From contig NZ_BLPF01000003.1 of NCBI RefSeq assembly GCF_011764425.1, positions 1,116,001 through 1,180,000 on the forward strand: 64,000 bases of DNA. Reading direction: 5' to 3'. Each line of letters opens with the position of its first letter. Position 1 is the stretch's first letter. The notes below the pieces were generated by a model. It had not been told where the DNA came from, did not search any database, and worked only from the letters and a program-made list of their open reading frames with translations. Source of the DNA: Phytohabitans houttuyneae (GTDB lineage Bacteria > Actinomycetota > Actinomycetes > Mycobacteriales > Micromonosporaceae). Position numbers and translations under genes: made by a program. Below are positions 2,572-60,060 of this stretch, in pieces.

Positions 2572-2580
2572 CCGGCCAGT

Positions 2581-2606
2581 TTGCCATAACGGCAAGAACC
2601 TTTGCC
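2581..2606. promoter_or_regulatory. Candidate operator of XRE-cupin regulator (three TTGCC half-sites)
   Basis: In the 65-base gap between the divergent starts at 2571 and 2637 lie TTGCC (2581-2585), GGCAA (2591-2595) and TTGCC (2602-2606). The first two form a perfect inverted repeat with a 5-base spacer, the last two another with a 6-base spacer. Position and symmetry suit a dimeric HTH regulator; binding is inferred. Confidence 0.5.
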
Positions 2607-2636
2607 GCCTTCCGGCGGCCGGTGCACGGTGAACGC

Positions 2637-3608
2637 ATGGAACAGTTCGACGTGATCGTGATCGGTGGCGGCGCCGCGGGCCTGAGCGGCGCACTGACCC
2701 TGGCCCGCGCCCGGCGGGCGGTGGCCGTGGTGGACGCGGGCGAGCCGCGCAACGCACCCGCCGAGGGTGTGCACAACTTCCTGACCCGCGACGGGATGAC
2801 GCCGGCCGCGCTGGTCGCCGAGGGGCGGGCAGAGGTGACCCGGTACGGCGGCACGCTCGTCGCGGGCGCGGCGCGGGGCGCCCGCCGCACGGACTGCGGG
2901 TTCGAGGTCGACCTGGACAGCGGCCACCGGCTCGCCGCCCGGCGCCTGCTGGTGGCCAGCGGCCTCGTCGACGAGCTGCCCGACGTCGCCGGGCTGCGCG
3001 AGCGGTGGGGGCACGACGTGGTCCACTGCCCGTACTGCCACGGCTGGGAGGTGCGCGACCGGGCCATCGGCGTGCTCGGGTCCGGCACGATGTCGGCGGA
3101 CAAGGCGCTGCTGTTCCGCCAGTGGTCGGCGGACGTGGTGCTCTTCACGCACACCGCGGCGCCGCTGACCGGTGAGCAGGCCGAGCGGCTGGCCGCGCGC
3201 GGTGTGCGGGTGGTCGAGGGCGAGGTGGCGGCCGTCGAGGTGTCCGGCGACCGGATCGCCGGGCTGCGGCTGGCGGACGGCACCGTCGTCGCCCGCGACA
3301 TCGTGGCGATCTCCCCGCGCATGGTCGCCTCCTCGCCGGTCCTGGACGACCTGGGGCTCAAGCCGGTCGAGCACCCGATGGGCGTGGGCGCGGCCTACGC
3401 CGCCGGGCCGGCCGGGCAGACCGACCTGCCCGGTGTCTGGGTGGCCGGCAACGTCACCGACCTGATGGCACAGGTGGTGGGCGCGGCGGCGCAGGGCACG
3501 GTGGCCGGTGCCGCGATCAACATGGACCTTGTCGCCGAGGACGCCGACCGCGCCGTGGCAGCCGGTCGCGCGTCGCAGGATGGCAATCCACCGGCAACAA
3601 TCGCTTGA
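2637..3608 (+). CDS. Thioredoxin-reductase-like FAD/NAD(P) oxidoreductase
   Basis: A 323-residue two-dinucleotide-domain flavoprotein. The N-terminal FAD motif is VIGGGAAGLSGALTLARA (about 7-24), the redox motif is HCPYCHGWE (about 137), followed by an NAD(P)-binding stretch (IGVLGSGTMSADKALL, about 150) and a C-terminal FAD motif around VWVAGNVTD. The CxxC is CPYC instead of the CATC/CAVC of classic TrxB. Actinobacteria carry many such TrxR-like proteins with unknown partners; no thioredoxin gene is adjacent. ATG 2637 is preferred over an in-frame GTG at 2622. Likely regulated by the divergent XRE-cupin protein. Confidence 0.85.
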   Translation: MEQFDVIVIGGGAAGLSGALTLARARRAVAVVDAGEPRNAPAEGVHNFLTRDGMTPAALVAEGRAEVTRYGGTLVAGAARGARRTDCGFEVDLDSGHRLAARRLLVASGLVDELPDVAGLRERWGHDVVHCPYCHGWEVRDRAIGVLGSGTMSADKALLFRQWSADVVLFTHTAAPLTGEQAERLAARGVRVVEGEVAAVEVSGDRIAGLRLADGTVVARDIVAISPRMVASSPVLDDLGLKPVEHPMGVGAAYAAGPAGQTDLPGVWVAGNVTDLMAQVVGAAAQGTVAGAAINMDLVAEDADRAVAAGRASQDGNPPATIA

Positions 3609-3733: not shown

Positions 3734-6699
3734 ATGAGAGCCGGACCGTCGACCACGACTCAGAGACCCCGAAAGCGGCAGCGGCTTCGCCTGCTCGCCG
3801 CCGGCGCGGTCGTCATCCTCGCCAGCGGACTGATCACGATCGCGGCCGGCAGGGCCGCGGACGCCGCGCCGGTCGGGGCGGGCAGCTACACCGAGACGCT
3901 CCCGCCCGGCGCGGCGCTCCCGTCCGGGTGCGGGACGATCTCCAGCAACCCGCGCCAGTTTCTGACCGCGAACGCGCCGGCCGGCGCCGTGCCCACAAAC
4001 GACTGGTGGTCGTCACTGGTGTTCAAGCGCTCGGACTGCGCGTACAGCCTGCCGCTGCACGCCCACCCGATCTCGTACGACACGTTCGCGGGCGGCCTGG
4101 GCTTCTCGTACACGACCACGCCGAGCATCAGCGGCACGCCGACCACCGTCGGCGAGTACCACTACTCGTACTCGCAGGACCTCCTCGTCGGTGTCGCCGG
4201 GCTGAACGCCCCCATCGTGCGGGTGGACGGGTGGAGCGACTGGACCGTGTCGCCGTACTGGACCGACGGCACCCGCACGCTGCGCGCCACGATCGGCCAC
4301 GGGCTGCCGTTCGCGTACTTCCAGGCGACCGGCGGCAACGCCCAGATCACCACCGCCGGCACGCCCACCGTGTGGCTCGACAGCGGTGCCACGCTGGGCT
4401 TCACTGCCGGCGGCAGCGACTACGTGGCGTACGCGCCGACCGGGGCGGCGTGGACCGTCAGCGGCGGCACCATCACGTCCACACTGGCCGGTCGCGGCTA
4501 CTTCTCCGTCGCCCTCCTGCCCAGCAGCGGCAACCGTGTGGACCTCGCCAACCGCTATGGCCAGTACGCGCACGCACACGTCACCGGCACCCGCGTCTCG
4601 TACGCCTACAACCCGGCGAACAACGGCCTGAACACCACGTACGCCTTCACCACCACGGCCCGCGAGGGGAGCGCCAGCGGGACTGTCGTCAGCCTCTACC
4701 CGCACCAGTGGCGGTACCTGAGCGGCGCCGCACCGATCACCGAGACCTACGTCTCGGCGCGCGGGGCGATGCGGACGCTGGTCGGGGTGCCGAGCTTCCA
4801 GACCCAGATGACGTTCCGCGGCGTACTGCCCGAGGTGCCGGCGGTCGCGGACAGCGCGGGCGCAGACCTGACCACGCTCAACAACTACCTCGCCGCCGTG
4901 CAGGGCAGCCCGGAGGGCCCCTCGGGCGGCGACACGTACTGGGCCGGCAAGGGCCTTGGCCGCGCCGCCCGGATCGCCGAGATCGCCGACCAGGTGGGCA
5001 ACACCGCCGTGCGCAACAGCGCGCTCACCGCGATCCGCAACCGGCTCAACAACTGGCTCACCGCCTCGTCCGGCGAGGGCGGCCAGCTGTTCTACTACAA
5101 CGCCAACTGGGGCACGCTGATCGGCTACCCCGCCTCGTACGGCTCGGACCAGGAGCTCAACGACCACCACTTCCACTACGGGTACTTCATCGCGGCGGCC
5201 GCGACGCTGGCCAAGTTCGACCCCACGTGGGCCTCGTCCGGGCAGTACGGCGGCATGATCGACCTGCTGATCCGGGACGCCAACAACTACGACCGCGGCG
5301 ACACCCGCTTCCCGTACCTGCGCGACTTCGACATCTACGCCGGCCACGACTGGGCCTCCGGGCACGGCTCGTTCGGCGCCGGCAACAACCAGGAGTCCTC
5401 TTCGGAGGGTCAGAACTTCGCCAACGCCCTCATCCAGTGGGGCCAGGCGACCGGCAACGCGGCGGTCCGCAACGCCGGCATCTTCCTCTACACCACGCAG
5501 GCGGCGGCGATCCAGGAGTACTGGTTCGACGCGGCCGACCAGAACTTCCCGTCCGCGTTCGGCCACTCCACGGTCGGCATGGTGTGGGGTGACGGCGGCG
5601 CGTACGCGACCTGGTTCAGCGGCGAGCCGGAGATGATCCAGGGCATCAACATGCTGCCCATCACCGGCGGCCACCTGTACCTCGGCTACAACCCGTCCTA
5701 TGTGAACACCAACTACGCCGAGCTGGTGCGCAACAACGGCGGACCGCCGACCGTCTGGCAGGACATCCTGTGGGAGTTCCAGGCGCTGGGCAACGGCGAC
5801 GCGGCCCTGGCCAACTTCCGGGCCAACAGCGGCTTCACCTCCGAGGAGGGGAGAGCAAGGCGCACACCTTCCACTGGATCCGCAACCTCGCCGCACTGGG
5901 CACGGTGGACACGTCGGTGTCGGCCAACCACCCGCTGACGGCGACGTTCCTCAAGAACGGCGCCCGCACCTACGTGGCGTCGAACATCAGCGGCTCGCCC
6001 ATCACGGTCACGTTCTCCACCGGTACCACGCTTTCCGTGCCCGCCGGGCGGACCGTGACCACCGGTGCGTTCTCCTGGAGCGGCGGCAGCGCCGGCGGCG
6101 GCACCAACCCCAGCAACCCGCCCACCACGGCGCCGCCGACGACCGCACCGCCCACGACCGCACCGCCGACCACCGCACCTCCCACGACCGCTCCGCCGAC
6201 CACGGCGCCGCCGACGAGCCAGCCGCCGACCGGCTCGCCGAACCGGTACCTGCTCAGCGGCGGCGGCCTGGCCGGTGCGGGCACGGCGGGCACCGTCACG
6301 GTGCCGTCGGCCGGCGGTACCAACCACGACGGCACGCCGTTCAACCCGGTCACCTTCACCGCGACCGGCCTCACGATGGCGTACAACGGCGGGGCCACCG
6401 CGTTCGACCTCTTCCTGGACGCGGGCGGCTCGGTCGGCAACGGCACCCAGGTGCGGGTCTCGTACGACCTGACCGGCAACGGAAGCTTCGACCGGGTCGA
6501 GACGTACCGGTACTTCGCCACCGACCCGGTCACCGGCTACGAGCACTACACCCAGGCGGCGGGGCTGGCGTCGTCGACCGGCACCCTGGGCAGCCTGAGC
6601 AACGGCACGGTGCGGGTCGAGGTGTGGAGCGCGATCGGCAACGCGCCGACCACCCTCGGCGTCGGCAACCAGTCCATCATCCGGATGCCGTTCGCCTGA
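3734..6699 (+). CDS. Secreted GH81 endo-beta-1,3-glucanase with C-terminal binding module (one apparent frameshift)
   Basis: A secreted enzyme of about 988 residues when one base is restored at the GGGG run 5848-5851. Residues 1-45 are a signal peptide ending near ADAAP. The GH81 domain starts at TNDWWSSLVF and holds the catalytic stretch with DHHFHYGYF and NNQESSSEGQN. After the shift the frame continues as ESKAHTFHWIRNL, the expected GH81 ending, then a PTTAPP-repeat linker (6110-6235) and a C-terminal beta-sandwich module of about 150 residues resembling the CBM56-type modules of bacterial beta-1,3-glucanases (tentative). GAAGGGG precedes the ATG. Role: hydrolysis of beta-1,3-glucans of fungal or plant walls. 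Without correction the first frame stops at 5938. Confidence 0.85.
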
Positions 6700-6711
6700 G
6701 CCACACCGGAC

Positions 6712-6744
6712 GTGGCGCCCCGCCTCCGGGCGGCGGGGCGCCAC
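6712..6744 (+). terminator. Strong hairpin after GH81
   Basis: A perfect 13-bp stem GTGGCGCCCCGCC / GGCGGGGCGCCAC with a 7-base loop starts 12 bases after the GH81 stop. No long U-run follows, as is usual for actinobacterial terminators. Confidence 0.75.
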
Positions 6745-6780
6745 GGTTGGCTTTCGCGCCCGCCGGGTAAGGCGGTGCGC

Positions 6781-6972
6781 ATGAGCGAACCTGACCGCGT
6801 GGAGAGCCGGGCCGAGCACCTGCTGCCCGAGGAGCGGGCGGCCGGCAGCGAGGACCCGGAGGCGCAGGCCGAGGCGATCCTCGCCGACTCCGACGCCCGC
6901 GAGGACTACATCGAGCCCTCGCCGGGCCTGCGGATCGACCACCGCCGCTCCGACGAGACCGTGGATCCCTAG
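6781..6972 (+). CDS. Small acidic conserved protein (63 aa)
   Basis: A 63-residue, strongly acidic, hydrophilic protein without cysteine (EHLLPEERAAGSEDPEAQAE, ILADSDAREDYIEPSPG). Short proteins of this pattern are common in Actinobacteria; no function is known to me. ATG 6781 is the natural start because sequence upstream belongs to the terminator region. The stop overlaps the convergent gene at 6969 by 4 bases. Confidence 0.6.
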   Translation: MSEPDRVESRAEHLLPEERAAGSEDPEAQAEAILADSDAREDYIEPSPGLRIDHRRSDETVDP

Positions 6973-7319
6973 GCGGTTTTCGCGTCGAGGCGCTGCAGGA
7001 GGTCGTGCGCGGCAAGCTCGATGTCCTTGTGCCGCCACTCCGAGGCCCGGTACACGCAGGCGATCAGCGCGGTGCGGTGCACGCGGCGCAGGTCGCCGTA
7101 GACGAACGCGTACCGCGCCTTCGTCCCGTCGGTGGCGCCCTCGGTCAGGCCGAGGTGCCAGCGCGCGTACTCCTCCCAGGAGTGCGACTTCAGGTACGCG
7201 TTCTGCGCGGCCGCGTCGGGCTGGACCGTGCCCCAGTCACTGTCCAGGACGTACTGCCGGGCATCGATCAGCTCGCGCGCCCGGGCCACCGCCTCGGGGT
7301 TGACCGTGTATTTCGCCAT
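6969..7319 (-). CDS. Conserved actinobacterial protein of unknown function (116 aa)
   Basis: A 116-residue soluble alpha-helical protein beginning [19 protein letters not shown], with conserved-looking [21 protein letters not shown] and [17 protein letters not shown]. The open frame extends to 7916, but the part upstream of ATG 7319 is alanine/arginine-rich shadow sequence antisense to the membrane-protein gene. I do not recognise a named domain. It shares a short divergent region with the gene at 7390. Confidence 0.75.
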
Positions 7320-7389
7320 ACCTGAGTCTTCCCAGCTCGGCCGGGTGCCAAGCGTACTTTCCGGCAAACCGCCGGGTAGATTGCCGCCC

Positions 7390-8652
7390 GTGGCACAGAC
7401 GAAGCGGGGTGCGGTGGGGTTCGCCGCGGTGTTCGGCGGGCTGGCCGGCGCGGCGATGGCCGGGCACTGGGGCACCGCCGCCGCCGTCGCCGGCGCGCTC
7501 GCCGGTGCGGCGGGGCTCGCCGCGTGCGAGGCCGTGGCCCGCGCGCGGCAGCGTCCCGGCCAGATCCCCGCCCTGTGGGCCCGGATCGCGACAAGCGTGG
7601 CGCTCGCCGCGCCGCTCGGCTGGCTCGCCGGACGGCTGGGCGCCGGGCCGCTGCTGGTCGGCATCGGCACCGGCGTGGTCGTCGGGCTCCTCGGGGTGCG
7701 GCCGCACAAGGTGCTCTTCGGCCCCGTCGTGGGTCTCGCCGCCGGGCTCGCGCTGTCGCTCGGCTGGGAGGCACCGGCCGCGGTCGTGGCGGCGGTGACC
7801 GTCCTGGCGTACCGGACGCTCTCGGCCCTGATTTTCCGCGACCCGCAGGTCACCCTGCTGGCCGAGCGGGTGCCCGCCGCCGACCTGCCGTTCGTGGTGC
7901 CGCTCGCCGCCCGCACCCGCTACGTCGGGACCGGATACGTCCGGGACCTCGCCGCGGCCATCGGCGGCCACTTCCGCGCGGACGCCCCGGACGTCGGCAT
8001 CGTCGCCTCGTTCGACGAGCTGGCCGGACCGGGCTTCGACCCGGCCGGCGTCGACCCGCGGGTACGCGAGTTCTACGAGCACACGACCCGCTTCGCGCTC
8101 GACATCGTGCCGCGGTGGCGGCTGTGGGTGCGCCCCGGCTACCTGCTCTACCGGAGCCTTCTGGCCCGCCCGCTCGGCCAGGCGAACGTGCCGATGAACC
8201 AGCGCGAGACCCAGCGCGGCATCCGCAGCCGCATCGACACGATCAGCCCGGAAGGCGACGGCGTGGTCGGGATCCGCGGGTGGATCCGCTCCTTCGCCGA
8301 CACCGACGAGCCCATCTACGTCGGCATATACACCACCTACCGGCACGGGGACCGCGGCTACGTGAGCGTCGGGTTCCCCTTGCCGCAGGCCAGCTTCACC
8401 GCCACACTGGTCCCGGAGCCGCGCCCCGACGGGGGTCTGGTGTTGACCAGCCGCAGCGACCTCGACCAGCCCGGCCACTACCTCACCCACATCGATCCCG
8501 AGTCGGGCGCGCTGACCACCCTCGCCGTGCACGGCTTCGCCGAGCGCCTGGACGTCTTCGTGCGGGACGGCGCGCTCCGCGCGGAGCACGCCTTCTGGGT
8601 CTTCGGCCTGCCTTTCCTGGTCCTGCACTACGACATCCGGCGGAAGGACTGA
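7390..8652 (+). CDS. Six-helix membrane protein with large soluble C-terminal domain
   Basis: A 420-residue protein not assigned to a family. Residues about 9-150 contain five to six closely packed Gly/Ala-rich membrane helices; the remaining ~265 residues are soluble and mixed alpha/beta, with [20 protein letters not shown], a segment [20 protein letters not shown] and a C-terminal end [15 protein letters not shown] 7390 is taken as start because upstream in-frame sequence is antisense to the 116-aa gene and does not look coding. The next gene follows after only 9 bases with an RBS inside the gap, so both are probably co-transcribed. Confidence 0.7.
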
Positions 8653-8661
8653 GGAGACACA

Positions 8662-9159
8662 GTGGACCTCATCAAGCCACCGCGGGTCGAGGAGCGGCCC
8701 GCCGTCGACTACGTCGGCATCCGCGTGGTCACCCCGTTTCGGGGCATGCTGCGGGTCCGCGACACCCTCATGAACGACCTCGTCGCCTGGCTGGACGGCC
8801 GCGGCGTGGACGACGCCGGCCCGCTCTTCTTCCGGCTGCACGTCATCGACATGGACGGCCCGATGGACATCGAGGTCGGCGCGGTCACCGCGAAGCCCCT
8901 CGCCGGCGACGGCGACCGGGTGCGCCGCGGCAGCCTGCCCGCCGGGCGGTACGCGACGCTGACGTACCGCAACCACTCGCTGCGGGCCAACAAGACGCTG
9001 CTGCAGTGGGTCCGCGACAACCGGGTGCGGCTCGACCGCCGGGACACCGCGGAGGGTGACGCGTTCGGCTGCCGGTACGAGGCGTACCTCACCGACCCCC
9101 GCACCGAGCCGCGCAAGACGAAATGGGAGACCGAGCTGAGCATGCGCCTCGCCGACTGA
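8662..9159 (+). CDS. GyrI/AraC-effector-binding-like small protein
   Basis: A 165-residue protein starting at GTG 8662, 9 bases after the membrane-protein stop (AGGAGA upstream). The layout matches the GyrI-like (Bac_rhamnosid/AraC E-binding, SOUL-type) ligand-binding fold: an N-terminal strand [11 protein letters not shown], a helix [13 protein letters not shown], then [18 protein letters not shown] and a late strand [12 protein letters not shown]. Proteins of this fold bind drugs or amphipathic ligands or inhibit gyrase. Pairing with a membrane protein suggests a small two-gene unit, function unknown. Confidence 0.65.
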
Positions 9160-9163
9160 CGGC

Positions 9164-9613
9164 TCAGCGCAGCACCAGCACCACGTGCTCGTTGTCGCCG
9201 TGGCGCACGGTCTCCTCCGCCACGAAGCCGCACTTTTCCAGCAGCCGCACCGAGCCGGTGTTGGTGGCGACCGGGTCGGCGTAGAGCGGCCGCGCCGCCT
9301 CCCGCTCCAGGAAGAGGCGCAGCGCCCGGGTGCCGACGCCCCGGCCCCACCACTGCCGGCCGAGCCAGTAGCCGACGAACCGGCGCTCGCCGTCCCACCA
9401 CGCCACGACGCTGCCGGCGAGCGCGCCGTCGACGGTCACCGCCCGCACGTGAACGGTGGGGTCGCCGAGCACCTTCGTCTCCCAGTGCGCCATGAACCGC
9501 TCGCGCGGGCGGGGCGGAAACTTCGAGCGGGCGGCCGCCTCCGGGTCGTGCTCCTGTGCCAGGAACACCTCCAGGTCGGCGTGCTCCACGTCCCTGAGCC
9601 GTACGTCAGCCAT
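9164..9613 (-). CDS. GNAT-family N-acetyltransferase
   Basis: A 149-residue GNAT protein. The acetyl-CoA-binding motif A is visible as [20 protein letters not shown], followed by the beta5-alpha4 region [21 protein letters not shown]. It is of the RimJ/RimL-like type acting on small molecules or protein N-termini; substrate unknown. ATG 9613 matches the domain start ([18 protein letters not shown]). Convergent with 8662-9159 and divergent from the NRPS gene. Confidence 0.85.
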
Positions 9614-9727
9614 GCCGGCCACTGTGCCACCAGCAGCCGACAAAACCCGACCGGACGGGGTTGCGCGCGCGAGGTAGCGTGGCCACCCGGCGGCGGCCGG
9701 TGCCGTCGCGGAGGGGTGCGGGGGACG

Positions 9728-12700
9728 ATGGGGGAGCGCCACGGCACGCGGCTGTCGCTGTCCGCCGCGCAGGAGGGGCTCTGGCTCGCCGACCGGCTCG
9801 ACCCGACCGGACGGGCCGCCACCCTCGCGGAGTGCCTGGAGATCCGCGGACCCGTCGACCGGACGCTGATGGAGCGGGCCTGGCGGATGGTGCTGGCCGA
9901 GACCGACGCGTGGCGGTTGCGGTTCGCGGAGGACGGGCCCGAGCAGACCATCATCGGGTACACCGAGCGCGAGCTGCCCTTCGCCGACCTGCCCGGCGAG
10001 GGCGAGGCCATGGCATGGATGCGCGCGGACCTCTCGCGTCCCTCGCCCGAGCCGGCGACGTTCGCGCTGCTCCGGGTCGCCGCGGACCGCTTCGTCTGGT
10101 ACCAGCGCTTCCACCACGCCGCCACCGACTACTACGGGGTGGTGCTGACCACGGCCCGCCTGGCCGAGGTCTACACCGCGCTGGCCATGGGCCTGGCGCC
10201 ACCGCCGTCGCGGTTCGGACGCCTCACCGACCTGCTCGCCGAGCAGTCGGCGTACCAGCTGTCCGCGGAGCGGGACCGCGACCGTGCGTACTGGATGGAT
10301 CGGCTGGCGGGCCGCGCGGAGCCGCCGGTCCCGCTCGGGCGCGGCACCCCGCGGGCTGAGGGTCCGCGGACCGTGACCACCTTCCTGGGCGAGCTCGCCG
10401 CGGGCACCGGGATCTCCTGGTCCCGGCTGCTGATCGCGGCCGTGGCGGCGTACCTGTACCGGGTGACCGGCGAGCGCGACGTGCTGCTCGCCCTGCCCGT
10501 CGCCGCCCGCACCACGCCGCTGGCCCGCCGCACCCCCGGGCCGGCCGCCAACATCGTGCCGCTGCGGCTACCGGTCGACCCGCGCACGCCGGTGCTGGAG
10601 CTTGTCGACAAGGTATCCGCCGCGGTGCGCGAGGCGGTGGCGCACCAGCACTACCGGTACGAGGACCTGCGCCGCGACCTCGACGCCGGCGACCTCCTCG
10701 GCCCGGCGGTCAACGTGATGTCCTTCGAGGACGAGCTGCGCTTCGGCGGCCACCCGGCGGTGCGGCACAACCTCGCCAACGGGCCGGTCGGCGACCTGGC
10801 GGTCTTCGCGTTCGGGCGGCCGGACGGGCGGGGCGTGCAGCTCGACCTGACCTCCCGCGCGTACGGCCCCGACGACCTCGCCGCACACCAGGGCGCCCTG
10901 CTGCGGCTGCTCCGCGCGGCCGCCGCCGACCCGAAGCGCCGGGTCGGCGACCTCGACCTGCGCGGACCTACGTGGCGACCGCCGGCCCGCGCCGCCGCTA
11001 CGGTGCCGCCGGTGCCGTTTCCGGTGCTGGTCGCGCGGCGGGCGGCCGCCACGCCGGACGCGGTGGCGGTCGACGGCGGCGGCGACCGGCTCGACTACGC
11101 CGCCCTGGACGCCTGGGCGGACCGGCTCGCGCACCGCCTCGCCACTGCCGGCGCCGGCCCGGGCACGGTGGTCGCGCTGCGGGCGCCGCGCGGCGTGGAG
11201 AGCGTGGTCGGGATGCTCGGCATCATGCGGGCCGGCGCCGCGTACCTGCCGGTCGACCCCGGCTACCCGCCCGCGCGCGTCGCGGCCCTGCTCGCCGACG
11301 CCCGGCCGGCGCTGGTCCTTACTCCGCCCGAGGTCCGCGCGGCGCGCACCGACCCGGAGCCCGCACCGCTTCCGCCACCGCGGGCGGACGACCCGGCGTA
11401 CCTCATCTTCACCTCCGGCAGCACCGGCCGGCCCAACGGCGTCGTCGTGCCGCACCGCGGGCTGGCCGCCCTCGCGGCGGCGCAGGCCGAGGCGTTCGGC
11501 ATCGGGCCCGGCAGCCGGGTGCTGCTGTTCGCCTCGCCGAGCTTCGACGCCGCCGTCGCCGAGGTGGTGACCACACTCGTCGCGGGGGCGACGCTGGTGG
11601 TGGCCCCGCTCGGCAGCGGCGGCGCCACCCACGTCACGCTCCCACCCTCGGTGCTGGCCACCCTCCCCGCAGACGGCCTGCCGGACGTCACCACGCTTGT
11701 CGTCGCCGGCGAGCGTTGCCCGCCCGACCTCGTCGACCGCTGGGCACCCGGGCGGCGGATGGTGAACGCGTACGGCCCGACCGAGGCCACCGTCTGCGCC
11801 ACCACGAGCCCGCCACTGTCCACAGCGGACACACACGACGGCCCGCCGCCGATCGGGCGCCCCATCCCCGGCACCGCCGCGTACGTGCTGGACGCCGCCC
11901 TGCACCCGCTGCCGCCCGGCATCACCGGCGAGCTCTACCTGGCCGGCACCGGGCTGGCCCACGGATACCTGGGCCGGCCCGGGCGCACGGCGGAGCGGTT
12001 CGTCGCCGACCCGTTCGGCCCGCCCGGCTCCCGCATGTACCGCACCGGCGACCTGGCCCGGTGGCGCGACGACGGCCAGCTGGAGTTCGCCGGCCGCGCC
12101 GACCGCCAGGCGAAGGTGCGCGGGCACCGGGTCGAGCCGGGCGAGGTCGAGGCCGTGCTCGCCGCGCACCCGGCGGTGGCGCAGGTCGCGGTCATCGTGC
12201 GCGAGGACCGGACCGGCGACCGCCGTCTCGTGGCGTACGCCGTGCCCGCCCCCGGCAACCTCGTCGACGGCGCGGCGCTGCGGCGGCACGCGGCCCGGAC
12301 GCTCCCCGGCCACCTGGTGCCGGCGGCGGTCGTCGCGGTGCGCCGGCTGCCCCTCACCCCGAACGGCAAGCTCGACCACCGCGCCCTGCCCAGGCCAGAG
12401 CCGCCCGCCGCCGGCCGGGCGCCCGCCACGGCGCTGGAGGAGGAGCTCTGCCACGTCGTGGCCGGCGTACTCGACCTGCCCAAGGTCGGCCCCGACGACG
12501 ACTTCTTCGACCTCGGCGGCGACTCGCTGCTCGCCGCCCGACTCGCCCGCCACCTGTCCATGCCCCCGCACCGGGTCTTCGAGACACCGACCGTCGCCGG
12601 CCTGGCCGAGGGCGGCGGCAGGCACGCCGGCGTACTGCCGATCCGGGCCGCCGGCGACCTCGACCCCCTCTTCTGCCTGCCACCCGCCGGCGGCCTGGCC

Positions 12701-52138: not shown

Positions 52139-52627
52139 ATGGGGAAGATCGAGATCAGGCGGGTCGGCTACCTCGACCCGGACGCGCAGGTGATGGTCGA
52201 GGCGGCTCTTGACGACCTGCGCGTGCGGTACGACGACGGTGAGGGTGACGGCACGCCGGTCGACCCGTCCGACTTCGAGCCGCCGCGCGGCGCGTTCTTC
52301 GTCGCCTACCTCGACGGCGAGCCGGTCGCCTCCGGCGCGTGGCGCACCCACGGCGCGGACGGCGCGGCCGCGGAGATCAAGCGGATGTACACCGCGCCGG
52401 CCGCCCGCGGGCGCGGCATCGCGCGGGCGGTCCTGGCCGAGGTGGAGCGGTCCGCGCGGGACAGCGGGCTCCAGCGCGCGGTGCTGGAGACCGGCGGCCG
52501 CCAGCCCGAGGCGATCCGGCTGTACCAGACGTCGGGGTACCGCCGGATCGCCAACTTCGGCTTCTACCGCGACGAGCCCGACGTGCACTCGTTCGGCAAG
52601 GAGCTGCTAGCGGGTTCCCAGGACTGA
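52139..52627 (+). CDS. GNAT-family acetyltransferase
   Basis: 162 residues: IKRMYTAPAARGRGIARAVL (motif A, RGRGIA) and RQPEAIRLYQTSGYRRIANF (motif B). ATG 52139 with GGGGGC before it. It overlaps the convergent lyase gene by 21 bases. Small-molecule N-acetyltransferase of unknown substrate. Confidence 0.88.
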   Translation: MGKIEIRRVGYLDPDAQVMVEAALDDLRVRYDDGEGDGTPVDPSDFEPPRGAFFVAYLDGEPVASGAWRTHGADGAAAEIKRMYTAPAARGRGIARAVLAEVERSARDSGLQRAVLETGGRQPEAIRLYQTSGYRRIANFGFYRDEPDVHSFGKELLAGSQD

Positions 52628-54235
52628 GCCGCCGGTCAGCCTCGCCGGCCCGGCGCAGCGGTCGACGCCCACCCGCACGTAGCGGCCGAGCCCGGTGAAC
52701 TCGACGCGGCCGGCGCCGACGCGGTCGGTGGCGTCCCGCGCGGCCACCGTCCACCGGCGGCCGTCCACCGAGGTCTCCACCCGGTAGTCGACCGCGTGCC
52801 GGCGGGCGGCGAACGTGACCTCGACGCCGGTCAGCTCGCGCAGCCGGCCCAGGTCGACGTGCCAGCCGCCGTGCCCCGGCCTCCACCGCAGGCCGCCGGC
52901 GTGGTCCACCGGGATCTCCTCGGCCGTGTACCGGCTGTAGTTGTAGTGCTTCTTCGCCTGCGGCAGCGGCCGGCCGGTCACCTTCGCGGCCAGGTCGCAC
53001 GGCGCGCTGGAGTACACGTACGCGCGGTCGCCCATCACGTAGTCGACCACCTCGGTGCGGTCGTCGCCGCACACGTCCGCGCGGACCATGCGCCCGTCGA
53101 CCGGGAACGTGGCCACGCGCTGGCCGGTGCCGTCCCAGATGCCGGCCACCTCGCCGCAGCCCCTGTTCCAGGCCAGGAGCAGGTCGCGGTACGTGCCGTC
53201 CCAGTTGTGCAGCGGCTCCAGCACGGTGCCCCAGCAGCCGAGCGTGCTCCGCTGCTCCTTCCACAGCGTCTGGCCGGTCGCGGAGACCAGGTACAGCGAG
53301 TCCTTGCCGGTGGTGGCGGTGCGGTCCACCCGGTCCAGGCCGGCCACCTCGAGGCCCGGCAGGTCGGGCCGGAAGTCGCCGAGGCCGACCTGCTGCGCCT
53401 CGACCGCGTCGAGGTTCTGCCAGAGCAGGGTGCCGTCGGAGCGGTACGCGTTGGTGCTGTCACCGCCCAGCCCCGCGCCGCCGAACACGACGTCCTCGGC
53501 ACCGTCGCCGTCGATGTCGCCGACCGCGATGGAGTCGGGGTGGTCGGCCATGTTCGCGGTCCAGACGAGCTCGCCGTCGGGGGTGACGAAGTCGTACCCG
53601 GCCAGCAGTTCCTGCCGGCCGTCGTCGTCGAAGTCGTGCGGGTACGGGCGGTGGCCGACCGTGCCGCGGTGCGTCCAGAGCAGGTTGCCCTCGCTGTCGG
53701 TGACCCACACCTGCTCGTACCGGTCCTTGAACATGATGTCCCGCGGCCGGTCGAGCCCGCGCACGTTCGCGATGACGATGGTGTCCCAGGCGTTCGGGCC
53801 GGGCACCGGGAATGCGCGGGTGAGCTGCCCGGTCCGCCCGTCGAAGATGCGCAGCTCGCCCTCCATCACGGCGAGCACCTCGTTGTCGCCGTCGCCGTCG
53901 ATGTCGTAGATCTCGGCGGGGATGTCGGTGCCGTTGTTGGTGACCCGCGGGTCGGGGGTGCCGACCTGCCACAGCTGGCCGCCGCCGCCCAGGTCGAAGG
54001 CGGCGAGCGCCTGCACCTGCCGGCCGATGTACCGGTCGTCGGCCGAGTACGTCGGCTGCATCGTCACGATGTCGAGCCGCCCGTCGCCGCTCACGTCACC
54101 CATCAGCAGCCGCGCCCCGGTGCCGCCGGCGCTGGTGTCCACGCTGGTGACCAGCTGGGGTTCGAGCGAAACCGGCGCGGGCGGCGCCACCCCTGTCGCC
54201 GCGACCGCCAGGGCGGCCGCGATCAGAACGTTCAT
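52607..54235 (-). CDS. Secreted rhamnogalacturonan-lyase-like beta-propeller with F5/8-type C-domain
   Basis: 542 residues. Short signal peptide (MNVLIAAALAVAATGVA). Repeated FG-GAP/PL11-type calcium motifs: GDVSGDGRLDIV, YDIDGDGDNEVL, HDFDDDGRQELL, GDIDGDGAEDVV, in a propeller; then KKHYNYSRYTAEEIPVDHAG and a ~110-residue galactose-binding beta-sandwich (WHVDLGRLRELTGVEVTFAA; GLGRYVRVGVDRC) of the F5/8 type C or CBM32 kind. Together this resembles rhamnogalacturonan (exo)lyases of family PL11, though catalytic residues cannot be assigned with confidence. Located right downstream of the ECF-PL9 gene on the same strand. Confidence 0.72.
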   Translation of the reverse strand: MNVLIAAALAVAATGVAPPAPVSLEPQLVTSVDTSAGGTGARLLMGDVSGDGRLDIVTMQPTYSADDRYIGRQVQALAAFDLGGGGQLWQVGTPDPRVTNNGTDIPAEIYDIDGDGDNEVLAVMEGELRIFDGRTGQLTRAFPVPGPNAWDTIVIANVRGLDRPRDIMFKDRYEQVWVTDSEGNLLWTHRGTVGHRPYPHDFDDDGRQELLAGYDFVTPDGELVWTANMADHPDSIAVGDIDGDGAEDVVFGGAGLGGDSTNAYRSDGTLLWQNLDAVEAQQVGLGDFRPDLPGLEVAGLDRVDRTATTGKDSLYLVSATGQTLWKEQRSTLGCWGTVLEPLHNWDGTYRDLLLAWNRGCGEVAGIWDGTGQRVATFPVDGRMVRADVCGDDRTEVVDYVMGDRAYVYSSAPCDLAAKVTGRPLPQAKKHYNYSRYTAEEIPVDHAGGLRWRPGHGGWHVDLGRLRELTGVEVTFAARRHAVDYRVETSVDGRRWTVAARDATDRVGAGRVEFTGLGRYVRVGVDRCAGPARLTGGSVLGTR

Positions 54236-54257: not shown

Positions 54258-56357
54258 TCAGCCCATCGCGGCGCCGTACCTTGCGTCGCCGGTCAGGAAG
54301 CGGGTGGCCGGCAGCGAGCCGTCCGGCCGGCGCGGACCCTGGGCCGTGGCCGGGTCCGTCGAGTCGAAGGCGGGCTCCTGGCCGCCGTCCCAGGTGTTGC
54401 CCTCGGACCGGGCCTGCTCGTCGCCGATCTCGGCGGGGGTCGGGTTGCCGGCGGCCGCGTTGCCGGTCAGCGCGGCGGTCGCCGTCGCCAGGTGGAAGCC
54501 GATCTCGCCGTTGCGGAACGCGGTGTTGTGCGAGAGCTCGATGCCGCCGGGGTTGCCGCCGTCGTCGAAGCCGTACCGCACGTTGTCCCAGGCGGCGTTG
54601 TCGCGCAGCTGGTGCGCGGCGGCCGGGGCCGGGCTGCCGCCGCCGAGGTGGAAGCCGTCGGCGTTGGCCTGCCACTCGGGCGCGTTCCACCGGTTGACGC
54701 CGTTGCCGTACGCCCAGTTGCGTTCCAGGCGCACCGGGTCGGCGAAGTGGCCGACGTCGAAGCCGCTGTCGGCGTTGTCGAAGGCGCGGCAGCCGCGGAC
54801 GAGGTTGCCGGTGCCGTCGCCGAACTTGATGGCCAGGCCCACGCCGGCGCGGCCCTTCTCGCGCGGGTCGTAGTTGCGGTAGAAGTCGCTGTCCAGCACC
54901 TGGTTGTCGACGGTGCCCGGATCCCGCAGGGTCAGCCCGGAGCGGACATTGTCGTGAAAGGACAGTCGCTGGAAGACGTTGCCGCGGCAGGAGACGCAGA
55001 CGTACGCGTGGCTGAGTGAGCCTTTGATCTCCAGGCCGCGCACGGTCCAGTAGTCGCCGCGGTGGGTGACCGCCCACTTGCGGATCGGCACGTCGCGCGC
55101 GTCGATGACCGGCCGCTCGTCGCGGTAGTTGGTGAGCGTGATGCGGCGGTCCGGCTCGCCGTCGACGTCGATGACCAGGTCGTCCGTGGGCCGGTACGTG
55201 CCGCCGCGCATCGCGATCGTCTGCCCGGGCCGGACGGCGGCGACCGCCTTGTGCAGTGTGGCGTAGGGACGGGCGAGGCTGCCGTCGCCGGCGTCGGACC
55301 CGTCGGGCGCGACCACGATGTCGGGTACCGCCGTCGCGCCCGGCGGCGCCGTGCCCGCCCGCGCGGGGGTGGTGGCCGGGCCGGTCGCCGGCGCCGTCCC
55401 GCTCCCGGCCCCGGTCACGGCCGGCTCGGCGAAGGGCAGGGCCGGCAGCAAGGGCTTCTCCACCACGGCGTACGTGAAGCCGCCACCCGCCACCGCGGTG
55501 GCCGCCGCGGCGACAAGCAGCTTCTTATGCAGGTAGCCGAGGAGCCCCGGGCCGGCCGACAGGGACGTGCCCTTGGCCAGGACGACGGGTGCGGGGAGCG
55601 CGGACAGGCTGAGTAGCAGCTGGTCGAGCGGTACGAGGCCGCGGCGGTGGCCCGCGCACCGCGCGCAGTCGCGGGTGTGCCGGACCAGCCGCTTGCGCCA
55701 CAGGGGAGCGGTGGTGCCGTTCCAGCCGCGCAGCTGGCCGGAGAGCTCGGGGCAGCGCGGGTGGGCGCTGAGCGCGCGGACGAGCCCACGGGTCGCATCG
55801 AGGCGTTCGCGGAGGCGCTGCAGGCGTACCGCGGCGTGTTTGGCGTTGACCGCGAGCGCCGCCGCCACCTCCTCGCGGGTGAGCTCGCCGGCCGCCTCCT
55901 GCCACCAGAGTGCGAGCAGCTGGCGGTCGCCGTCGTCGAGCCACCGCGAGGCCTGGGCGAGCTCGCGCCGCTGCCCGGTGAGGGCGAGCGCGCTGACCGC
56001 GTGGTCGGCGAAGTCGGCGCGCGGGTCGGGCAGCTCCGCCGGGGCGTCCCGGACCCGCAGCAGGGTGCGGCGGCGGTCCCGCAGGTGGCGCTGGACCTGC
56101 CGGTACGCGATGGTGATCGCCCAGGCGCGGAAGCGGTCGGGCTCGCGCAGGCCGGGCAGCCCACGCATGATCTTGATCATGGTGTCCTGCACGAGGTCGT
56201 CGACGTCGGCGTGGCCGCCGAGGGCGCGGCCCACGACGCCGTAGATCACCGGCAGGTGGGCGGCGACGAGCGCGTCGAGCGCGTCGCGGTCGCCGGCCTG
56301 CGCGCGCACCACCAGCGCGGTGACGCCAGGGGCGGCCTCGATCTCACTCTGAGTCAT
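54258..56357 (-). CDS. ECF sigma factor fused through a membrane helix to a PL9-like pectate lyase
   Basis: One frame of 699 residues. Residues 15-95: sigma region 2 (HADVDDLVQDTMIKIMRGL, FRAWAITIAYRQVQRHL). 130-190: sigma region 4 (TREEVAAALAVNAKHAAVRL). 200-240: zinc-finger-like segment HTRDCARC (H227, C231, C234, with C202). 281-298: single membrane helix after KK. 310-345: Thr/Pro/Gly linker. 346-699: right-handed beta-helix with the PL9 opening GSLARPYATLHKAVAAV and active-site pattern GLAIKFGDGTGNLVRGCRAF with Lys 511 at the catalytic position and DNADSGFD as calcium ligands. Predicted topology: sigma domain inside, lyase outside. ATG 56357; the far upstream extension is not conserved. 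Neighbours are pectin genes on both sides. Confidence 0.82.
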   Translation of the reverse strand: MTQSEIEAAPGVTALVVRAQAGDRDALDALVAAHLPVIYGVVGRALGGHADVDDLVQDTMIKIMRGLPGLREPDRFRAWAITIAYRQVQRHLRDRRRTLLRVRDAPAELPDPRADFADHAVSALALTGQRRELAQASRWLDDGDRQLLALWWQEAAGELTREEVAAALAVNAKHAAVRLQRLRERLDATRGLVRALSAHPRCPELSGQLRGWNGTTAPLWRKRLVRHTRDCARCAGHRRGLVPLDQLLLSLSALPAPVVLAKGTSLSAGPGLLGYLHKKLLVAAAATAVAGGGFTYAVVEKPLLPALPFAEPAVTGAGSGTAPATGPATTPARAGTAPPGATAVPDIVVAPDGSDAGDGSLARPYATLHKAVAAVRPGQTIAMRGGTYRPTDDLVIDVDGEPDRRITLTNYRDERPVIDARDVPIRKWAVTHRGDYWTVRGLEIKGSLSHAYVCVSCRGNVFQRLSFHDNVRSGLTLRDPGTVDNQVLDSDFYRNYDPREKGRAGVGLAIKFGDGTGNLVRGCRAFDNADSGFDVGHFADPVRLERNWAYGNGVNRWNAPEWQANADGFHLGGGSPAPAAAHQLRDNAAWDNVRYGFDDGGNPGGIELSHNTAFRNGEIGFHLATATAALTGNAAAGNPTPAEIGDEQARSEGNTWDGGQEPAFDSTDPATAQGPRRPDGSLPATRFLTGDARYGAAMG

Positions 56358-56583
56358 GGCTGCGCCGCTCACCACCGATCGATCCGGCCGGCACGATGGT
56401 GACACAACGACGTAAGTAAGTAAAGACAACCAACTATGTATTGCGTTGTCGCTGGGGGAAGCGTATTCCTGATAGCCAGATCGAGGATTTTGGTTATCCG
56501 CCGTTGCCCGCGGGTGTCTACCAGGGTGCCGTCACCTCCCACGGCCACCACCTTGCTCACCGTGACCACAGAGGAGCCCCACG
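56358..56583. promoter_or_regulatory. AT-richer divergent promoter region of ECF-PL9 and PL3 genes
   Basis: 226 bases between divergent starts, notably AT-rich at 56400-56500. It holds ACAACG (56404-56409) inverted with CGTTGT (56444-56449), a further GACAACC in between and the run GTAAGTAAGTAAAG. Repeated ACAAC elements could be -35-like sites of the adjacent ECF factor; unproven. GAGGAG precedes the PL3 ATG. Confidence 0.4.
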
Positions 56584-57898: not shown

Positions 57899-57935
57899 AC
57901 GGCGCGCGGGTGGCGCCCGGCCTCCCGCGCGCCGT
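57899..57935 (+). other. Leader hairpin at the 5' end of the GH5 transcript
   Basis: Stem ACGGCGCGCGGG / CCCGCGCGCCGT, 12 perfect pairs, loop 13, followed by GTTTCTCT then GGAGGG and the ATG. It may be the PL3 terminator or, given the promoter at 57867, a stabilising or attenuating leader. Confidence 0.55.
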
Positions 57936-57954
57936 GTTTCTCTGGAGGGCACCT

Positions 57955-60060
57955 ATGAGGCGAACACGCCGGCGGCTCGGAATCGTCGCCGCCGCCACGG
58001 CCGGACTCGTCGCCGCGGCCGGCGTCATCCTGGCCACGAGCGCGCAGGCGGCGGCCGGCTGCCGCGTGACGTACGCGGCCGGCAGCCAGTGGCCCGGCGG
58101 CTTCACCGCCAACGTCGGCATCACCAACCTCGGTGACCCGGTCAACGGCTGGAGCCTGGTCTGGACCTTCCCGTCCGGCCAGCGGGTGACCCAGGCGTGG
58201 AGCGCGAACGTGACGTCCTCCGGCGCCACGGTCACCGCGACGAACGTCGGCTACAACGGCGCGATCGCCACCAACGCGACCGTCTCGTTCGGCTTCAACG
58301 GCTCGTGGACCGGCACCAACACCGCGCCCACCTCGTTCGCCCTCAACGGCGTCACCTGCACCGGCGCGGTCGGTACGACGCCGCCGCCGACGAGCCAGCC
58401 GCCGACCAGCGGACCGCCGACGAGCGCGCCGCCCACCTCGCGGCCGCCGACCACGCCGCCGCCGGCCGGCAACGCGATGGCCGCGGTGGCCGCCATGCAG
58501 CCCGGATGGAACCTGGGCAACTCGTTCGACGCGGTCGGCGCGGACGAGACCGCGTGGGGCAACCCGCGGGTCACCGAGGCGCTGCTGGACAACATCCGCG
58601 CACAGGGCTTCAACAGCATCCGCATCCCGGTCACCTGGACCAACCACCACGGCGGCGCGCCGAACTACACGATCGACGCGGCCTGGCTGAACCGGGTGCG
58701 CGAGGTGGTCAACTGGGCGCTCGCGGACGGCTTCTACGTGATGATCAACCTGCACCACGACTCGTGGCAGTGGATCAACACGATGCCGACCGACCGCACG
58801 AACGTGCTCAACCGGTACAACGCGCTGTGGACGCAGCTCGCCGCCGCCTTCCGGGACGCGGGCCCGCGCCTGACCCTGGAGAGCGTGAACGAGCCGCAGT
58901 TCACCGGCAGCTCCGGCGACGCGCAGAACGCGCAGCTACTCAACGAGCTCAACACCTCGTTCCACCGGATCGTGCGCGCCTCCGGCGGTAACAACGCGAC
59001 TCGCCTGCTCGTGCTCCCCACCCTGCACACCTCGGCCGACCAGGCGCGGGTGGACGAGCTGACCGCCACGTTCAACGCACTCAACGACCCCAACCTGATC
59101 GCCACCGTGCACTTCTACGGGTACTGGCCGTTCAGCGTGAACGTGGCCGGCGGCACCCGCTTCGACGCCACCGCGCAGCAGGACCTCGTGGCCCAGTTCG
59201 ACCGCGTGTACAACGCGTTCGTGTCCCGCAACATCCCAGTGATCATCGGCGAGTACGGGCTGCTCGGCTTCGACCGGCACACCGGCACGATCGAGCAGGG
59301 CGAGAAGCTGAAGTTCTTCGAGTACCTGGGCTACTACGCCCGCAACCGGCGGATCACCACCCAGCTGTGGGACAACGGCCAGCACTTCGGCCGCACCTCG
59401 TTCCAGTGGAGCGACCCGGAGCTGATCGCCCAGATCAAGTCGAGCTGGACCACCCGCTCCGGTACCGCCGCGAGCGACCAGGTGTACGTGCCGCGCACCG
59501 GCTCGATCACCAGCAAGAGCCTGGCGCTCAACCTCAACGGCCTGACCTTCCAGGGGCTGCGGCAGGGGAACACCGACCTGGTCAGCGGCACCGACTACAC
59601 GGTCTCCGGCGGCACGCTCACGCTCACCGCGGCGGCGGTCACCCGGCTGGTCGGCTCCCGCGCCTACGGGGTCAACGCGAACATCCAGGCCCGCTTCTCG
59701 GCCGGCGTGCCGTGGCGGATCAGCATCATCACGTACGACCCGCCGGTGCTGTCGAACGCGACCGGGCCGACCGGGTCGTTCACCGTGCCGACCCAGTTCC
59801 GCGGCGACCAGCTCGCCACGATGGAGGCCAGGTACGCGGACGGCAGCAACGCCGGCCCGCACAACTGGACCTCCTTCAAGGAGTTCGACGTCACGTTCGC
59901 GCCGAACTACAGCGCCAACACGATCACGCTGAAGCCGGAGTTCTTCGCCGAGGTCAACGACGGCCAGCGGGTGACGCTGACGTTCCACTTCTGGAGCGGC
60001 ACCACGCTCACGTACTACGTCACCGAGTCCGGCGGCAACGTCACCGGAAGCACGAGCTAG
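57955..60060 (+). CDS. Secreted endoglucanase CBM2-GH5_4-CBM_X2-CBM46
   Basis: 701 residues. Signal peptide to about 36 (...TSAQAAAG). CBM2 (CRVTYAAGSQWPGGFTANVG), then PPTSxPPT linker, then GH5_4: GWNLGNSFDAVGADETAWGN, IRIPVTWTNHHGG, acid/base Glu in ESVNEPQF, nucleophile Glu in VIIGEYGLLGFD. Next an Ig-like CBM_X2 (GSITSKSLALNLNGLTFQG; TDYTVSGGTLTLTAAAV) and CBM46 (EFDVTFAPNYSANTITLKPE; VTLTFHFWSGTTLTYYV). The GH5-X2-46 order is that of Bacillus Cel5B, in which CBM46 helps act on xyloglucan. ATG 57955 after GGAGGG. Role: endo-cleavage of cellulose or beta-glucan. Confidence 0.92.
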   Translation: MRRTRRRLGIVAAATAGLVAAAGVILATSAQAAAGCRVTYAAGSQWPGGFTANVGITNLGDPVNGWSLVWTFPSGQRVTQAWSANVTSSGATVTATNVGYNGAIATNATVSFGFNGSWTGTNTAPTSFALNGVTCTGAVGTTPPPTSQPPTSGPPTSAPPTSRPPTTPPPAGNAMAAVAAMQPGWNLGNSFDAVGADETAWGNPRVTEALLDNIRAQGFNSIRIPVTWTNHHGGAPNYTIDAAWLNRVREVVNWALADGFYVMINLHHDSWQWINTMPTDRTNVLNRYNALWTQLAAAFRDAGPRLTLESVNEPQFTGSSGDAQNAQLLNELNTSFHRIVRASGGNNATRLLVLPTLHTSADQARVDELTATFNALNDPNLIATVHFYGYWPFSVNVAGGTRFDATAQQDLVAQFDRVYNAFVSRNIPVIIGEYGLLGFDRHTGTIEQGEKLKFFEYLGYYARNRRITTQLWDNGQHFGRTSFQWSDPELIAQIKSSWTTRSGTAASDQVYVPRTGSITSKSLALNLNGLTFQGLRQGNTDLVSGTDYTVSGGTLTLTAAAVTRLVGSRAYGVNANIQARFSAGVPWRISIITYDPPVLSNATGPTGSFTVPTQFRGDQLATMEARYADGSNAGPHNWTSFKEFDVTFAPNYSANTITLKPEFFAEVNDGQRVTLTFHFWSGTTLTYYVTESGGNVTGSTS

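Follow-up and report, generated by a model that had tools for sequence, protein, structure and literature searches.

The closest described systems are the extracytoplasmic function (ECF) sigma factors of groups ECF52 and ECF53 from Actinobacteria. The cited passages describe a C-terminal zinc-finger, one or two membrane helices and an extension outside the membrane, and propose proteolytic release (PMC8999054, PMC5826349); some members have predicted glycosyl hydrolase or carbohydrate-binding domains that, as stated in PMC10766802, await experimental validation. In IutY of Pseudomonas putida (ECF243), a sigma factor is fused to a membrane anti-sigma part and, in the account given in PMC8999054, is activated by regulated proteolysis. 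The SigI/RsgI sensors are described as having extracellular carbohydrate-binding module (CBM), glycoside hydrolase (GH) and PA14 domains, the last of which is reported to recognise pectin (PMC12203970). This report examines a stretch of 64,000 nucleotides from Phytohabitans houttuyneae (the window; contig NZ_BLPF01000003.1, positions 1,116,001 to 1,180,000), in which a single gene encodes an ECF sigma factor, a predicted membrane helix and a pectate-lyase-like domain of polysaccharide lyase family 9 (PL9) in one protein, P0001. There are good grounds for regarding P0001 as a one-protein transmembrane receptor and transcription factor, with pectin outside, sigma inside and pectin enzyme genes as the output.

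Like ECF52 and ECF53 proteins as outlined in these sources, with SCO4117 as the ECF52 model, P0001 has a zinc motif, a membrane helix and an extension outside the membrane. Its HxxxCxxC motif, helix at residues 281–299 and PL9 exodomain, compared with the named relatives, give it the ECF52/ECF53 type of architecture. A preliminary description of this DNA, made from the sequence alone, had named ECF53 for actinobacterial ECF factors with C-terminal membrane and carbohydrate-related extensions, in agreement with the reviews as cited (PMC8999054, PMC10766802). Unlike in these groups, as far as the sources describe them, the exodomain of P0001 is a PL9 pectate-lyase fold whose catalytic site is altered, and is linked to pectin genes. 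The motif proposed for SCO4117 (CSGYN-17bp-SRHA, itself theoretical) also differs by eye from the P0001-type motif described below. As in SigI/RsgI of Clostridium thermocellum, outside sensor domains would report plant polysaccharides to a sigma factor; in the cited account sigma and membrane anti-sigma are separate there, whereas P0001 holds both in one polypeptide and its sensor is an altered lyase. P0001 shares with IutY the union of sigma and membrane anti-sigma part, but IutY responds to the siderophore aerobactin in cell-surface signalling, and the passage cited mentions no polysaccharide exodomain for it (PMC8999054). The ECF52/53 descriptions drawn on here mention no pectate-lyase exodomain (PMC8999054, PMC5826349, PMC10766802), and a pectate-lyase sigma fusion was not found in the open-licence literature at title and abstract level. 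ECF52/53 sigma factors with predicted carbohydrate domains are already known; relative to these sources, the new points are the PL9 exodomain with its altered site and the linkage to pectin genes.

Domain order, residue changes, recurrence of the fusion, gene linkage and promoter motif can all be read directly from the sequences. The sensor gene and the parts of its product are the following.

54258..56357, minus strand: sigma-PL9 sensor gene encoding P0001, 699 codons plus stop (open frame, Pfam, NCBIfam, orthologous fusions)
55797..56321, minus strand: ECF sigma domain, about residues 13–187 (Sigma70_r2, TIGR02937, PDB sigma matches)
55656..55679, minus strand: HxxxCxxC zinc anti-sigma-like motif, residues 227–234
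55461..55517, minus strand: predicted membrane helix, residues 281–299, with basic residues on the sigma side (hydropathy)
55323..55460, minus strand: Pro/Thr/Gly-rich linker, residues 300–345 (sequence)
54261..55322, minus strand: PL9-like beta-helix exodomain, residues 346–699, with altered Val506, Ser531 and His570 (1RU4 alignment, fold, residue table)

The frame is uninterrupted, as first described: minus-strand positions 54258–56357 translate to 699 residues without a stop. Residues 30–98 match Sigma70_r2 in a Pfam scan (E 3.7e-17), and the NCBIfam model TIGR02937 (sigma70-ECF) covers residues 25–186. Sigma regions 2 and 4 had both been claimed. Region 2 is borne out by the Sigma70_r2 match; region 4 gives no separate Pfam match at E 0.01, and its stretch is modelled by AlphaFold2 as helices with a pLDDT of about 75–88. 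P0001 is thus classed as an ECF sigma factor (sigma-70 group IV, the group defined by regions 2 and 4 in the absence of 1 and 3), without a separate Pfam match for region 4. The HxxxCxxC segment, formed by H227, C231 and C234, is present as reported and recurs in 26/26 fused and 33/33 other sigma frames examined; its His and both Cys are invariant in alignments A1, A2 and A3 (one A1 member, from locus L118, has an out-of-frame tail). The single membrane helix, earlier put at about 281–298, appears as a hydrophobic helix at 281–299, and the Pro/Thr/Gly linker lies where expected, at residues 300–345. Of the HMM matches that had been proposed as a check, Sigma70_r2 and the PL9-type fold are returned by Pfam, the latter as a Pel9A-like beta-helix at residues 457–618. 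In a phmmer search against solved structures, residues 348–688 match Pel9A (1RU4) with E 1e-44. The AlphaFold2 model of P0001 (13 sequences) is confident for the beta-helix, fairly confident for the sigma part and unreliable for residues 249–342, a region that includes the predicted membrane helix. Its best PDB match is again 1RU4 (Foldseek E 5.9e-21, TM 0.76 by target length), and ECF sigma–anti-sigma complexes are also among the matches. The exodomain is therefore a right-handed beta-helix homologous to Pel9A; the PL9 rhamnogalacturonan lyase 5OLQ/5OLR ranks next after 1RU4 in both sequence and fold searches.

The fusion recurs. Of 101 genomes from its family, that of the window among them, 25 have a full-length copy. 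One frame (G055) is broken by an in-frame stop and two genomes have two copies, so that 24 genomes hold an intact copy and the family sample contains 26 intact fused frames, P0001 among them; elsewhere in the family, long intact frames show 45–67% identity. The search for orthologues called for in the preliminary description thus returned the same fusion, and the 26 homologous frames rule out a frameshift or assembly error: the sigma-PL9 frame is not a sequencing artefact. When 396 genomes sampled evenly across the phylum were searched, the sole match at E≤1e-95 was the genome of the window. Among the 80 loci listed in a scan of named genomes, fusions also occur in Actinoplanes, Paractinoplanes, Catellatospora and Hamadaea; the matches listed further include Micromonospora sp. 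CPCC 205371 (identical in sequence to G077, a genome placed in the window's genus), Streptomyces xylophagus, S. fuscichromogenes and one uncultured record labelled Streptomyces. Kinship points to Micromonosporaceae as the probable family of the host. The two named Streptomyces fusions rule out a restriction to one family, and they imply that the 396-genome sample and its cut-off missed cases. In G057, from the same genus, a decayed copy (L043, about 8679–9804; left out of the fusion counts) keeps the sigma part at 83% identity, while the lyase part is broken into fragments spread over three frames; the copy still has a PL3-RicinB neighbour.

The exodomain departs from Pel9A in its active site. 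In 1RU4, Asp209, Asp233 and Asp237 belong to the calcium sites and Lys273 is the base, according to the passage cited (PMC10992409); the matching residues of another PL9 are named in PMC6627557. The corresponding residues of P0001 are Val506, Asp530, Asp534 and His570, and the set of an active PL9 pectate lyase is therefore incomplete. The acidic calcium ligands, said earlier to be kept, are kept at Asp530 and Asp534 (Asp233 and Asp237), while Asp209 has become Val506. Asp234 of Pel9A, which we take to be a further calcium ligand, aligns with Ser531. Lys511, proposed as the catalytic lysine, pairs with chain residue 189 (Lys214) of 1RU4, whereas Lys273 (chain residue 248) pairs with His570; this rules out Lys511 as the base. 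P0001 thus has the beta-helix fold of Pel9A, with clear homology, but not its Lys273 and Asp209 equivalents. Because the base and a calcium ligand are lost, the exodomain most likely no longer cuts, and judged by these residues a role as pectin receptor is more likely than one as enzyme.

Free PL9 enzymes behave differently from fused ones. All five active-site residues are kept in 39/39 free frames, which were fetched by resemblance to P0001, but in only 3 of the 26 intact fused frames (L022, L024, L078); compared with the 38 free frames that enter the tree, this gives a Fisher p of 1.8e-14, with relatedness ignored. L010, one half of the stop-broken fusion, and L099, a fusion truncated where its contig ends, were not counted as free; the more distant secreted PL9 L007 fell below the search cut-off and is absent from the residue table; and neither L045 nor P0001 (same as L001) is in the tree. 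This quick tree has 66 rows and was computed with the five active-site columns removed; it splits 28 fused from 38 free rows with a support of 100. Within P0001's fused subclade, Asp209 and Lys273 are both absent from 14/14 rows, and separate branches elsewhere among the fused domains show D237G, D233G, D237A with K273D, or K273R. Since changes lie on separate branches and some proteins are intact or have K273R only, active-site loss in the fusions is repeated yet not universal; going by the alignment, a 'dead' enzyme is not a universal property of fused PL9 domains. Among the most altered active sites are those of L018 and L019 (same genes as L075 and L076), which have no nearby pectin enzyme.

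The output of the proposed receptor is suggested by gene linkage and by a promoter motif. The relevant features of the window are as follows.

56493..56521, plus strand: predicted sigma promoter GTTAT-N18-GTCTAC; its end lies 62 bases upstream of the PL3 start codon
56584..57843, plus strand: RicinB lectin plus PL3 pectate lyase gene, predicted target, divergent from the sensor (Pfam)
52607..54235, minus strand: FG-GAP/RGL11_C-like plus F5/8C-like protein, starting 22 bases after the sensor stop on the same strand (Pfam)

Of the flanking genes that had been described, the PL3 gene is confirmed by Pfam; the rhamnogalacturonan-lyase-like one stands in part, with a partial RGL11_C match and FG-GAP repeats. 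The latter is possibly co-transcribed with the sensor; as a conserved partner it is ruled out, being found at the window locus only among the 41 fusion loci scanned. These loci, queried with PL1, PL3, PL9 and pectinesterase, include the stop-broken fusion and three PL9 loci fetched twice, which leaves 38 distinct ones; L159, which has no sigma frame, was left out. The flanks match the queries at 37/41 loci (34/38 distinct). A pectin lyase or pectinesterase gene lies within 2 kb at 33 of the 38, and is divergent upstream within that distance at 25. The common layout has RicinB-pectinesterase and RicinB-PL1 genes running away from the sensor; the window locus has RicinB-PL3. In named genomes, mostly of Streptomyces, 65 relatives whose exodomain is of another type were scanned, and none had a pectin enzyme neighbour. 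For a fairer comparison, 20 non-PL9 sensors were taken from sensor-bearing genomes; two have such a neighbour within 2 kb (L272, L280; p 1.1e-8 against 33/38) and a third, L283, has one 14 kb away.

The motif before the divergent PL3 gene is TTTnnGTTAT-N17/18-RTCTAC. It was found by dyad counting in sensor upstream regions, as GTTAT-N18-GTCTAC facing the divergent gene; in the 4-mer dyad search the GC-rich background came close to the signal. Discovery was made on PL9 loci with the threshold set by hand, shuffles and non-PL9 loci serving as controls. The site at 56493–56521 is the only match in the window, with none in 100 shuffles. Across the 11.3-Mb genome, GTTAT-N17/18-RTCTAC has two matches, both before pectate lyase genes; the second lies 37 bases before the likely start of a secreted CBM2-PL9 lyase gene (L002). 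In G058, too, the TTT-extended motif precedes an unlinked PL9 gene.

A fixed rule, in which TTT two bases before GTTAT is weighted and the fifth base of the −10 word is free, was applied to 139 sensor upstream regions, a set in which three PL9 loci were fetched twice and three duplicate non-PL9 pairs were left. It returned 68 sites that face the sensor and 30 that point away, and five dinucleotide shuffles gave 0, 0, 0, 1 and 0 of 139 (toward only). The direction depends on the exodomain type: PL9-type sensors have 0/41 sites toward and 25/41 away, CAP-type 34/39 toward, GH128 20/23 toward and 2 away, L003-like 5/10 toward, unclassified 9/18 toward and 1 away, and AbfB 0/8 toward and 2 away. 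With a looser first rule (GTTAT plus GTCTAC, one mismatch), PL9 loci had 3/38 sites toward and 21/38 away, against 28/65 and 2/65 for other exodomain types. That PL9-type sensors never face the motif is excluded, as L038, L082 and L085 have GTTAT-N18-GTCAAC toward the sensor under this rule. The −10 word also differs. It reads RTCTAC in 19 of the 25 PL9 sites (all away), whereas the fifth base is C in all 68 sites toward other sensors; relatives with other exodomains have RTCTCC, mostly before themselves. A short, separate, conserved ECF gene with a TTTnnGTTAT...ATCTCC site just upstream was observed in four genomes of the window's genus, the window's included (L250, L252, L253, L260).

Taken together, P0001 probably senses pectin and turns on the adjoining pectin-digesting genes. 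The outside PL9-like domain would bind a pectic polymer or its fragments, most likely without cutting, and the zinc motif beside the sigma domain would keep sigma inactive at the membrane. Ligand binding could then lead to cleavage in or near the membrane helix, or to conformational release, and so free the sigma domain. Freed sigma would guide RNA polymerase to promoters of the TTTnnGTTAT-N17/18-RTCTAC form ahead of secreted pectin enzyme genes; the predicted targets are the divergent PL3 gene and the unlinked CBM2-PL9 gene. Ligand identity, the inhibitory role of the zinc motif, proteolysis and use of the promoters are our inferences; the steps of binding, cleavage and release are modelled by analogy on ECF52/53, IutY and RsgI as described in the cited passages (PMC8999054, PMC5826349, PMC12203970). 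Of the sense-and-respond system first suggested, the pectin-sensing idea is upheld by the conserved neighbours and the motif before pectin genes; a lyase that keeps its catalytic lysine and cuts is not, Lys273 having become His570.

Several observations weigh against this account, or limit it. Besides the three fused proteins that keep all five active-site residues, four more change only Lys273, to Arg, which is the base of other lyases; judged by that residue, these four may still be active. GH128-type exodomains keep both catalytic Glu in 16/16 sigma-linked frames, which excludes the idea that all exodomains of the sigma set are dead enzymes; loss of catalysis is thus not required in this architecture, and catalysis and sensing can coexist. 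In the tree the fused PL9 domains group in a single clade, which means that the rows do not count as independent cases of fusion, residue change and promoter type. Four of the 38 fusion loci have no flanking pectin enzyme (L075, L076, L154, L163), and 15 of the 38 lack the motif at the threshold used. Over eight genomes GTTAT-N17/18-RTCTAC has 15 matches against 4 for a backward-read control, hence some matches are due to chance, and the control for TTTnnGTTAT-N16/18-nTCTnC is not empty either (23 matches against 2 in 26 genomes). Thirteen of these TTT-extended matches end in CTAC: nine precede a pectin enzyme gene, one (L246) precedes a protein with a sub-cutoff Pectate_lyase_4 match, and three lie at fusion loci without a pectin gene that way (L244, L256) or before the gene of an LRR-domain protein (L266). 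Finally, of 21 free PL9 genes in genomes with a sensor, just 2 carry the motif, so the regulon is small or variable; with 1 of 17 elsewhere, that every free PL9 gene is a target is ruled out. The one gene found elsewhere belongs to G057, the genome with the decayed sensor.

Three other explanations were considered. The exodomain might be a working, membrane-tethered pectate or rhamnogalacturonan lyase, with cutting or its product as the signal. In its favour, P0001 retains Asp530 and Asp534, a base function of His570 is conceivable in principle, and the sites of three fused relatives and of the GH128-type exodomains are intact; but Lys273 and Asp209 are both changed in P0001 and in 14/14 subclade rows, while the free frames keep all five residues without exception, and we consider a working lyase unlikely. 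Somewhat less probable still is a non-pectin signal, such as another polysaccharide or the state of the cell wall, the pectin neighbours then reflecting gene origin. The four fusion loci without pectin neighbours, the rank of the rhamnogalacturonan lyase 5OLQ/5OLR next after 1RU4 and the two of 20 non-PL9 sensors with a pectin enzyme within 2 kb would fit this. Against it stand the 33/38 linkage, which holds though enzyme type (PL1, PL3, pectinesterase) and position vary, and the fact that two genomes have the motif in front of a PL9 gene not linked to the sensor. It is very improbable that P0001 is just the decaying remnant of a sigma-lyase fusion and no longer takes part in signalling: the copy in G057 has decayed beyond its sigma part and that in G055 has an in-frame stop, but other family genomes hold long intact frames at the identities given above, the His/Cys/Cys and region-2 residues are invariant, and neighbours and promoter motif are conserved.

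The pectin-receptor reading of P0001 can be set in a wider family. In the window's genome, paralogues of the sigma-zinc-helix set have AbfB (L005), GH128-like (L004) and two unassigned (L003, L006) exodomains. Pfam scans of 30 non-PL9 members gave Glyco_hydro_cc in 14, AbfB in 4, CAP in 2, and Lcl_C and Pectate_lyase_4 in 1 each. The 80 sigma frames in the 80 listed named loci fall into CAP-type (38), PL9 (14), GH128 (8), L003-like (6) and AbfB-type (4) clusters, with 10 in small clusters or singletons. The commonest, CAP-type (Cysteine-rich secretory protein family; identified by a Pfam run on one member of the 38, L214), is mostly from Streptomyces, and its sensors are usually preceded by their own RTCTCC motif.

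Residue 89 belongs to sigma region 2.4 and is presumably adjacent to the positions with which sigma-70 reads −12. In the sigmas to which a site could be assigned, a set with a few duplicate rows in which three PL9 loci count twice, it is Gln in 17/19 with an RTCTAC site and Arg in 70/73 with C at the fifth −10 base. Other alignment columns score equally or higher, residue 119 first. As the two classes are largely two clades, some rows are duplicates and other columns rival it, residue 89 is a lead, not proof. The chances seem evenly balanced that these proteins form a modular set of single-protein receptors in which carbohydrate-enzyme exodomain and promoter specificity diverged together, the PL9 branch turning from enzyme to receptor by loss of catalysis. 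Under that same even-odds proposal, PL9-type sigmas would read RTCTAC and drive divergent pectin genes, and CAP, GH128, unnamed (DUF) and other-exodomain relatives would read RTCTCC and mostly drive themselves. If so, one cell would hold several insulated polysaccharide channels.

The sensor offers a likely ligand class, a decayed-enzyme receptor, a promoter motif, two predicted targets within one genome and a residue-level guess at promoter choice, and with these the one-protein receptor model is directly testable. If true, it would be a simple example of an enzyme turned receptor, its free copies staying enzymes and some being predicted outputs; if the sensor works, its modules might be swapped to build sugar-responsive switches in actinomycetes.

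Some further observations concern the related receptors and the locus itself. L034 (G059; 760–2943, minus strand) encodes a sigma-zinc-helix protein whose fused domain is a PL1 pectate lyase rather than PL9. At the Arg position of the QRxPRxR motif seen in two free PL1 relatives, it has Gln, a single case; a search for this motif, in which we take Arg218 to lie, found nothing in the other 28 free or partial PL1 frames examined. At L279 (G048), a free GH128 enzyme gene adjoins a GH128-type sigma receptor (6412–7518 and 7923–9842, minus strand), a pair that parallels the PL9 case. A RicinB-domain frame lies less than 1 kb from 3/5 AbfB-type receptors (L277, L282, L284) in the 20-locus control. 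Lastly, a CBM2-GH5-CBMX2-CBM46 cellulase gene (57910–60060, plus strand) stands beside the PL3 gene, and the CBM2-PL9 gene L007 lies just past the window edge; owing to these two genes, the locus looks like a plant-cell-wall gene cluster.

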